Source of the DNA: Neobacillus sp. SuZ13
GTDB taxonomy: Bacteria > Bacillota > Bacilli > Bacillales > Cytobacillaceae
Direction: 5' to 3'
DNA length: 64,000 nt
Assembly (NCBI RefSeq): GCF_030123365.1
Contig: NZ_CP126107.1
Coordinates: 1,349,501-1,413,500, forward strand
Position numbers and translations under genes: made by a program. Each line of letters begins with the position of its first letter. The stretch's first letter is position 1. Shown in pieces: positions 26,393 through 28,145 of this stretch. The notes under the pieces were generated by a model. That model saw nothing but the letters and a program-made list of their open reading frames with translations. It did not search any database and was not told the DNA's origin.

Positions 26393-26812
26393 TTATACTT
26401 GTTTATTTATATTTTCAGCCATTTCCTGTAATAATTCAAAAGAATACTCATTTTGATTACTTTTCCATACGGCCCCAAACCCATCTCCTTTTCCATAACG
26501 CGGAATTAAATGCATATGATAATGAAAGACAGATTGCCCCGCATGTTCGCCATTATTATTTACAGTATTTAATCCAATGGGATTAAATTCTCTTTTTAAA
26601 GCATTAGCAATGGTAGGAACTACTTCAAAAATATTCCTTGCGATTTCTGGAGTTAATTCAAATACGTTTTCCTTATGTACTTTTGGAATAACCAACGTAT
26701 GTCCCTTTGTTACTTGGGTAATATCTAAAAAAGCTAAAACATGTTCATTCTCGAAAACCTTGGCAGAAGGAATTTCACCATTAACAATTTTACAAAAAAT
26801 ACAATCGCTCAT
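26393..26812 (-). CDS. hit: HIT-family nucleotide-binding protein Hit
   Basis: 139 aa. The histidine triad HYHMH occupies residues 97-101, followed by LIPRYGKGDGFG; CIFCK at residues 4-8 supplies the zinc-site cysteines. The family hydrolyses nucleotide phosphoramidates or dinucleoside polyphosphates. ATG 26812 is 8 nt after GAAGGGA; the GTG two codons earlier overlaps that site. Divergent from ecsA, as in B. subtilis, with an unusual 590-bp gap between. Confidence 0.94.
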   Translation of the reverse strand: MSDCIFCKIVNGEIPSAKVFENEHVLAFLDITQVTKGHTLVIPKVHKENVFELTPEIARNIFEVVPTIANALKREFNPIGLNTVNNNGEHAGQSVFHYHMHLIPRYGKGDGFGAVWKSNQNEYSFELLQEMAENINKQV

Positions 26813-26866
26813 ATACACTGTCCCTTCAATATTGTTTGTATTATTTTACCATACAAACGAAAAAAA

Positions 26867-26897
26867 GAAAAAGGCAGGATCCGCATGGAATCCTGCC
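26867..26897 (-). terminator. Strong minus-strand terminator of an unassigned transcript
   Basis: GGCAGGAT / ATCCTGCC 8-bp stem followed on the minus strand by TTTTTCTTTTTTT. No protein gene lies upstream of it on that strand, so it should end the transcript of the structured element at 26901-27282. Confidence 0.85.
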
Positions 26898-26900
26898 CTC

Positions 26901-27282
26901 TCGAAGGGGAATTGCTTCAAAAGGTACGTTCATTAGGAGTGTTCTTTGATAAACACCTCATTTTTTATAGAGTGTTTTTATAAAGAAACATTATTGTTCA
27001 AGCTGACCATCCCCTATGGTGTTTTTATATGTTTTCCCAACTTATAAAAACAGGTAGCGATCTGCGGTAAACACCTCATTTAATGTTTATTTTTTTAAGA
27101 TAAACAATTACTTGGTGTTACTAGAACTCAAAATGGTTAAAATGCACGCTGTACAAAACAACCATCCCCTTATCTGAAACGAATTGGAAGCTCACTTATT
27201 TGAAATGTTAATTGTCTTTGACAGACACCTCATCTCAAGTTTTAATGAATCACTTCATTGAAGTAAGTTGTTTCCCCTTCGA
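26901..27282 (-). ncRNA. Candidate large structured non-coding RNA between hit and ecsA
   Basis: 382 nt closed by a perfect 11-bp inverted repeat (TCGAAGGGGAA at 26901-26911; TTCCCCTTCGA at 27272-27282), with a terminator directly 3' on the minus strand. Inside, ATGAGGTGTTT (or a close form) occurs three times (complements at 26951, 27069, 27223) and AGGGGATGGT twice (27006, 27161). Further helices: 27252-27256/27260-27264; 27213-27217/27223-27227; 27070-27075/27114-27119 enclosing 27085-27090/27100-27105; and 26952-26959 can pair with the identical heptamers GAGTGTT at 26937 or 26970. No coding ORF is supported. No known family was recognised; it could alternatively be a leader acting on ecsA. 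Confidence 0.5.
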
Positions 27283-27404
27283 ATATTATGATAACCAATC
27301 TGAAAAGTAATATACAAAAAAAGTGATAAAAATTTGAAAACTATTTTTATCAACAACAATTTGTTAAAATAAAAAGATAATCCTGCTTAGGAAGGACGTT
27401 GCAA

Positions 27405-28145
27405 ATGTCTTTATTAACGATTGAAAATCTTGTTGGCGGCTATACCAGAAACCCTGTTTTAAAAGATATTTCTTTTGAAGTAAATGAAAAAGAACTGGTC
27501 GGTTTGATTGGTTTAAATGGGGCAGGCAAAAGTACAACCATAAAACATATTATTGGATTAATGGAACCGCACAAAGGTGCAGTTAAAATAAAAGGACAAA
27601 CCTTTACTGAAAATAAAGAAGCCTATCGAAAATTGTTTACGTTTGTTCCAGAAACCCCGGTTTTATATGAAGAATTGACTCTTGAGGAGCACTTAAGACT
27701 TTCAGCGATGGCTTATGGCCTTGATGAAACCACCTATAAAGAGCGTGTTAATCCATTACTGAGAGAATTTCGAATGGAAAAGCGTTTAAAGTGGTTTCCT
27801 GCCCATTTTTCTAAAGGTATGAAACAAAAAGTAATGATTATGTGTGCCTTTTTAATTCAGCCATCCTTATACATAGTGGATGAACCTTTTGTTGGACTGG
27901 ATCCACTAGGGATTCAATCCTTGCTTGATTTAATGAAAAAGATGAAAGATAACGGAGCAGGCATCTTAATGTCTACTCATATACTTGCGACAGCTGAAAA
28001 ATATTGTGATCGATTTGTGATCTTGCATGAGGGGCAAATTCGGGCAAAAGGGACATTAGAAGAGTTGAGGGAGCAGTTCTCAATGCCTGCTGCTTCTTTA
28101 GATGATTTGTATATTCAATTAACAAAGGAAGAAAACTATGTTTGA
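27405..28145 (+). CDS. ecsA: ABC transporter ATP-binding protein EcsA
   Basis: 246 aa. Walker A GLNGAGKST is at residues 36-44, followed by a modified signature FSKGMKQKV and Walker B LYIVDEPFVGLDP. The Ecs exporter affects secretion, competence and regulated intramembrane proteolysis in B. subtilis; the substrate is debated (peptide export is proposed). ATG 27405 follows GGAAGGACG. The stop overlaps ecsB by 8 nt. Confidence 0.95.
   Translation: MSLLTIENLVGGYTRNPVLKDISFEVNEKELVGLIGLNGAGKSTTIKHIIGLMEPHKGAVKIKGQTFTENKEAYRKLFTFVPETPVLYEELTLEEHLRLSAMAYGLDETTYKERVNPLLREFRMEKRLKWFPAHFSKGMKQKVMIMCAFLIQPSLYIVDEPFVGLDPLGIQSLLDLMKKMKDNGAGILMSTHILATAEKYCDRFVILHEGQIRAKGTLEELREQFSMPAASLDDLYIQLTKEENYV

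Follow-up and report, generated by a model that had tools for sequence, protein, structure and literature searches.

The space between the divergently oriented genes hit and ecsA in the window (by which we mean the whole stretch of 64,000 nucleotides of Neobacillus sp. SuZ13 DNA that was analyzed) raises the question of whether it holds an RNA gene and, if so, to which family such an RNA belongs and what role it may have. The original prediction, which was made from the letters alone, proposed a structured minus-strand RNA of about 400 nt ending near 26867, and this proposal is now backed by folding, conservation and covariation. Judged by these three lines of evidence, the minus-strand RNA located between ecsA and hit is a real and strongly conserved structured RNA gene. 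The features of the locus are collected in Table 1, in which the name ecsA is taken from the original prediction and from published gene order.

Table 1. Features at and around the RNA gene, in window coordinates
Feature	Position	Strand	Remarks
hit (HIT-family protein) ORF	26393..26818	minus	outside RNA
Promoter-like element before hit (TATGGTAAAATAATAC)	26838..26853	minus	downstream of RNA terminator
RNA gene, ~416 nt	26868..27283	minus	basis: fold z -5.75, conservation, covariation
RNA 3' end	in T-run 26868-26872	minus	
Intrinsic terminator	26868..26902	minus	helix 12, 99.8% of cells paired
P1 closing helix, 3' strand TTCCCCTTCGA	26901..26911	minus	covariation
Module M3 (ATGAGGTGTTTATCAAAGA)	26943..26961	minus	
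Motif R2 (AGGGGATGGTCAG)	27003..27015	minus	
Hairpin UUUUUAUAAGUU...AACAUAUAAAAA	27022..27050	minus	helix 10
Module M2 (ATGAGGTGTTTACCGCAGA)	27061..27079	minus	
Motif R1 (AGGGGATGGTTG)	27159..27170	minus	
Long-range CGUU	27176..27184	minus	pairs with AACG at 26925-26931, helix 6
Long-range GCUU	27186..27193	minus	pairs with AAGC at 26910-26918, helix 5
Module M1 (ATGAGGTGTCTGTCAAAGA)	27215..27233	minus	
P1 closing helix, 5' strand TCGAAGGGGAA	27272..27282	minus	covariation
RNA 5' end	near 27283	minus	placed from promoter position
RNA promoter-like site GTATA - 17 nt - TATCATA	27287..27315	minus	sigma-G/sigma-F type
ecsA (ABC transporter ATPase) ORF	27399..28145	plus	divergent neighbour

Extent and fold of the RNA

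The minus strand folds with an energy of -121 as compared with -88.7 +/- 5.6 for 100 shuffles, and the plus strand folds less well (z -3.93). Each feature named in the original prediction can be located in the sequence. The perfect 11-bp closing inverted repeat described there is present as helix P1, with its arms separated by a loop of 360 nt; a perfect 11-bp inverted repeat whose loop measured 300 nt or more arose in 6 of 2000 mononucleotide shuffles. The strong minus-strand terminator that was said to adjoin this repeat was also located. It directly follows P1 and is the sole terminator-like site in 26700-27500, where 0.3 would be expected, and the hit-side promoter-like element lies past it. 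The latter element is present in many relatives and is separate from the promoter of the RNA. Several ORFs of at least 30 aa overlap the RNA stretch; the one frame tested, which starts at the AUG that recurs in the modules, is not coding-like.

A search of the window stretch against Rfam gave nothing above the gathering cut-off. SIB_RNA (21.3 bits versus a cut-off of 56), mir-7360 (22.2 bits versus 47) and LhrA (14.5 bits versus 100) all fell below threshold and were taken as chance. Seven homologous loci gave no Rfam match at E <= 0.1, and a plasmid search for the RNA gave no match. The earlier statement that no known family applies is therefore correct with respect to Rfam, but not with respect to the literature, where the counterparts ncr1670/S357 and Bvs196 have been published.

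Covariation was scored in 42 family sequences of less than 90% mutual identity that were drawn from 60 extracted of 67, leaving out two that were tandem or odd and five without delimitable ends. The consensus structure was written from one member, namely the window sequence, and comprises 74 pairs with 92.5% of cells paired across the 42 sequences; 16 of these pairs changed on both sides. The covariation score of 0.109 was not reached by any of 500 shuffles (0.085 shuffled), nor by slid structures (<=0.049), a control in which a structure written from a single member has an advantage. Helices that are supported include P1, the 5' hairpin, the outer helix of M1, GCUU/AAGC, CGUU/AACG, the AU-rich hairpin at 27022-27050 and the terminator. 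For example, one pair of the AU-rich hairpin is UA in 19 sequences and CG in 17. Module M1 forms a hairpin (UGUCU-GUCAA-AGACA) within its outer helix (UUGAGA/UUUCAA), and this hairpin has 97.6% of cells paired with no double-sided change.

Two details of the fold require further comment. The two identical AACACTC heptamers, which had been thought to offer the 3'-most module alternative folds, are indeed present at 26937-26943 and 26970-26976, and the alternative pairing is possible on paper. However, helix 11, in which the 3'-most module pairs with the upstream heptamer, pairs least well of all helices with more than one pair (85.0% of cells), and none of its pairs changed on both sides across the 42 sequences. 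A conserved alternative-fold switch is thus not supported, since the upstream-heptamer helix, the one that was counted, is devoid of compensatory changes. The second detail concerns P1 outside of the family, where 6 or 7 of 7 pairs can form in each of the 20 gaps shown (11 distinct sequences), with strands that were picked by eye and are thus biased towards pairing. L080 and L082 were dropped from this set, as both strands were not located, and L098 was added. An automatic comparison of end duplexes gave a mean of -25.8 for native versus -23.4 for swapped ends, and the native duplex was better than every swap in 0 of 21 cases, in a run where the end segments were misplaced in several RNAs as judged by eye. 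RNAalifold gave P1 when run on our own alignment, and with alignment A1 it paired motif R2 with the 3' strand of P1 and not with the 5' end. We prefer P1 over the R2 pairing because P1 exhibits compensatory changes, and R2 may pair conditionally with the 3' P1 strand.

Repeated modules and their distribution

Comparison shows that this RNA is made up of several copies of a single motif that hardly varies. The three copies of ATGAGGTGTYT and the two copies of AGGGGATGGT that had been noticed in the gap correspond to modules M1 to M3 and to motifs R1 and R2, respectively. The module consensus is AAAUGAGGUGUYURUCRMAGA, with the near-invariant module consisting of AAAUGAGGUG followed by UYURUCRMAGA. 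Two to six copies per gap are found in 116 of 116 RNA-bearing gaps (two copies in 14 gaps, three in 81, four in 14, five in 5 and six in 2), although this count comes from a biased sample because most gaps were collected by similarity to the RNA or to the module; unbiased counts are those from the g35 and g68 samples described below. The reverse strand has a module in 1 of the 116 RNA-bearing gaps, and 22 RNA-less gaps have none. Among 101 non-redundant units, the search pattern itself fixes ATGAGG, the next G and the AG close to the end. Outside of the pattern, the two A residues that precede the module are conserved in 94 and 95 units, and position 9 is a T in 94 units. In L098 the RNA is duplicated in tandem, and the six modules of L043 make the same likely there.

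Conservation in relatives, as judged by DNA searches, is extensive. Of 61 genomes in the genus, 60 gave a strong match (E 1.5e-70 or better), with the remaining genome, G005, having a best E of 0.04 that was taken as no RNA match. In the family, 180 of 193 genomes representing 24 of 25 genera matched at E <= 1e-4, and in the order 61 of 397 drawn genomes matched at E <= 0.001, some with short matches. Among 70 loci fetched from the genus and family, 66 lie between hit and ecsA in a shared orientation with no exception flagged, and four (L054-L057) are ectopic. The ectopic copies are short but keep P1, two modules, one R motif and the terminator, and the stretches fetched around them contain no hit and no ecsA; in L055 the apparent start of a resolvase-type ORF was noted by eye a few hundred nt downstream of the copy.

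The strict module pattern (GAGGTGTNTRNCRMAGA) extends this range, as it occurs in 99 of the 397 order genomes and 38 of 135 genera, versus 10 of 397 genomes for a reversed control. Thirty loci were returned with this pattern, of which 23 are located in the hit-ecsA gap; the other seven lie inside ORFs away from hit-ecsA and were taken as chance. Module-bearing gaps were confirmed in families f1, f11, f13, f23, f28, f32, f42 and f44, and on this evidence the RNA spans at least eight families.

The genera g35, g68 and g31 were sampled via Hit or EcsA, regardless of the RNA. The RNA is present in 16 of 16 g35 genomes and in all 10 genomes drawn from g68 (family f44), and no module is present in 22 of 22 hit-ecsA gaps of g31 (family f7), where the gap measures 147-162 nt in the six listed. 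All 32 genomes in which SASP genes were looked for have them, G005 and four genomes of g31 among these, and loss of sporulation was therefore rejected as the cause of RNA absence. As the RNA is absent in g31 and undetected in G005 while SASP genes are kept, it appears to be dispensable for having a spore programme. A g31 genome (G198) also has csfG. G005, with five SASP matches, is yet the sole one of 30 relatives without csfG. The window itself has a SASP (PF00269) match at about 2430-2594 of the minus strand (C1:1351930-1352094).

Promoter type and relation to published forespore RNAs

Promoters recognized by sigma-G have the consensus GHATR-N17/18-CATNHTA. The promoter-like site of the window RNA has one mismatch (T for C) to this consensus. 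The strict form is present in the forward direction in 39 of 74 non-redundant gaps and in reverse in none (mononucleotide-shuffle mean 1.2), and in the full set of RNA-bearing gaps it is found in 58 of 116 forward versus 1 of 116 reverse. With one mismatch allowed, these values become 110 and 27 of 116; the window, being a one-mismatch case, is weaker evidence because this relaxed pattern also arises by chance, as in the 27 reverse strands. Promoters of sigma-F and sigma-G are described as alike, with the -10 region having an upstream G for sigma-F and a downstream A for sigma-G (PMC3789822). The sequence GACATCATAAT, which is common among the gaps, has both.

An RNA with these properties has been described in B. 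subtilis and B. velezensis. According to PMC9147052, Bvs196 of B. velezensis is a 294-nt RNA within a 490-bp hinT-ecsA gap that is forespore-specific and sigma-F/G dependent, with a promoter just upstream and a rho-independent terminator, and a northern blot identified it as an independent RNA of ~300 nt. The same paper gives Bvs196 as homologous to B. subtilis S357 (printed once as S547 in the discussion), reports that spores of the deletion strain are less resistant to heat and UV and more resistant to formaldehyde, and proposes spo0A and sspN-tlp as targets. In other work, ncr1670 has been placed in hinT-ecsA with a weak Hfq enrichment (ratio 2.77; PMC3574147), and ncr1670 and S357 are given as one RNA (PMC4410918).

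We conclude that the window RNA is very probably a long local form of the S357/ncr1670/Bvs196 forespore sRNA, and as such a forespore RNA gene, because place, strand, promoter type and motifs agree. Like its counterparts, it is located in the hit(hinT)-ecsA gap on the hit strand, it has a promoter of sigma-F/G type just 5' of the RNA (with one mismatch in the window copy), and it ends in its own rho-independent terminator. The homology rests on copies in g68. This is probably the genus of B. subtilis, given that its Hit proteins share 79-99% identity with PDB 1Y23, the Hit protein of B. subtilis. Repeated AUGAGGUG modules are found in 10 of 10 g68 gaps, and P1 is kept in L143, L145 and L148, the three g68 copies examined. 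There are also differences. The published form of Bvs196 is 294 nt versus ~416 nt for the window RNA, and the latter has two AGGGGAUGGU motifs that were seen in none of the nine g68 copies listed. The loops of Bvs196 are called variable in PMC9147052, and the sections of it that were consulted carry no mention of a repeated module. No description of the repeated module or of the multi-family range was found in the literature searched, which consisted mostly of papers outside subscription, and within that literature the modular build and the span over families are apparently undescribed. Forespore-only expression and a role in spore resistance are published for Bvs196 only, and would extend to the window RNA by analogy.

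CsfG (RF00516, ylbH motif, other strand) is similar in that it is a forespore RNA under sigma-F/G that is conserved among spore formers. It differs from the window RNA in its locus (C1:1686534-1686652 in the same genome) and in its CU-rich conserved core, and no module shared by the two was seen. We rejected the identification of the window RNA as CsfG, as the RF00516 covariance model has no match at the window and csfG is found as a separate gene elsewhere in the genome. By eye, in a comparison involving window 27272-27283 and L171, the 5' strand of P1 with its flank, GGGGAAAC, is complementary to the CsfG loop GUUUCCCC, which may be chance because P1 varies outside of the family.

Possible roles of the repeated modules

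Under the mechanism that we propose, the RNA would probably be transcribed inside the forespore by sigma-G, and to some extent by sigma-F, from its own promoter, and its transcript would stop at its own terminator before hit. Helix P1 ties the 5' end to the 3' end, and the RNA presents several near-invariant modules. These repeated modules would be docking sites for one invariant partner, either a protein or the ribosome, so that the RNA would serve the maturing spore as a trans-acting multivalent platform or sponge and would depend less on its variable linkers. The promoter type, P1, the modules, the terminator and the conservation are seen in the sequence, while expression in the forespore and the influence on resistance of spores to heat and UV come from the published counterpart. 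We give the docking step itself an even chance.

The same gene may instead act as a trans-acting antisense sRNA whose loops pair with a few mRNAs, with the modules having only a structural role. PMC9147052 reports in vitro binding (Kd of 73.87 nM for sspN-tlp and 3.57 uM for spo0A) that is lost on mutation, as well as changed mRNA levels in the Bvs196 deletion strain, and the weak Hfq enrichment of ncr1670 fits as well. However, the published pairing region (nt 74-131 of 294) would map in the homologue L145 between M1, near +33 to +51, and M2, near +150 (counted by hand, with the start placed 4 nt past the -10), and this linker differs in length and sequence between genera. The best-conserved parts of the RNA recur almost without change, as a site that tracks a changing mRNA would not. 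Location of the pairing region in a variable linker thus speaks against antisense pairing as the function that is conserved, a model we consider rather unlikely, while it may hold in B. velezensis.

Returning to the docking of an invariant partner, a fuller version would have an order-wide modular RNA that docks the ribosome or a protein in the developing spore, with modules that park the translation machinery or a spore-specific RNA-binding protein. In this version, to which we attach a low probability, the two to six AAAUGAGGUG modules would be imperfect Shine-Dalgarno mimics that act as the forespore goes dormant, g35 would be helped by an 18-nt 16S-antisense hairpin, and the reported mRNA targets would be secondary. 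Taken separately, the idea that the modules mimic Shine-Dalgarno sequences and so retain idle 30S subunits via the 16S 3' tail seems improbable. A hand count gives 9 possible pairs over 10 positions between AAAUGAGGUG and the 16S tail CACCUCCUUU, and the 21-nt module duplex of -10.3 kcal/mol is matched by 2.0% of shuffles. However, the decamer alone reaches -8.9, which is matched by 9.5% of shuffles, versus -17.0 for a true Shine-Dalgarno sequence. Constancy of the mismatched U carries no weight as its position is fixed by the search pattern, GGUGU sits in helices of the consensus structure, and the R motifs and P1 pair with the 16S tail no better than shuffles (13-21%). All 16 of 16 g35 genomes do have an extra 18-nt stretch antisense to the 16S rRNA of the window organism (with one G-U in some), but its core occurs in g35 only among 138 gaps, and both this stretch and the Shine-Dalgarno match of the module were spotted after the fact.

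The 16S-antisense stretch, TCGTTGYGGGACTTAACC, is contained in an extra hairpin, GTTGYGGGACTTAACCG...CAAC, of the g35 hit-ecsA gaps (L101-L116). The genome of the window organism has three partial 16S rRNA matches outside of the window (C1:9264-10000, 354313-354949 and 3867555-3868191), with 15 full matches elsewhere.

A very improbable explanation is that the RNA constitutes the 5' leader of hit, a riboswitch-like attenuator that switches the terminator, as might be supposed of an RNA on the hit strand that is directly 5' of hit with a strong terminator at its end. In many relatives a promoter-like element (TATGGTAAAATA) lies between the terminator and hit, the distance from the RNA match to hit is 206-275 nt in L009, L010, L016 and L065 versus 33 nt at the window locus, the four ectopic copies are found without hit or ecsA in the fetched stretch, and the northern blot of Bvs196 cited above detected an independent RNA. 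Finally, the modules are almost certainly not short coding units for MRCLSK-like peptides, for while they start with AUG, vary in a manner that looks partly synonymous and give MRCLSKT in 16 of 101 units, 3 of 101 units have UGA as the third codon, all three positions of codon 5 are variable, stop positions are scattered and a Shine-Dalgarno-like sequence lies within 22 nt upstream in 3 of 101 units.

Little is understood of how genes are controlled after transcription while the spore matures, and the counterpart of this RNA affects resistance to heat and UV. For a family that has no Rfam match here, an alignment and a consensus are now supplied. The analysis also shifts the focus from the variable linkers, where the published targets would map, to the near-invariant module, which offers a concrete bait in the search for a partner.
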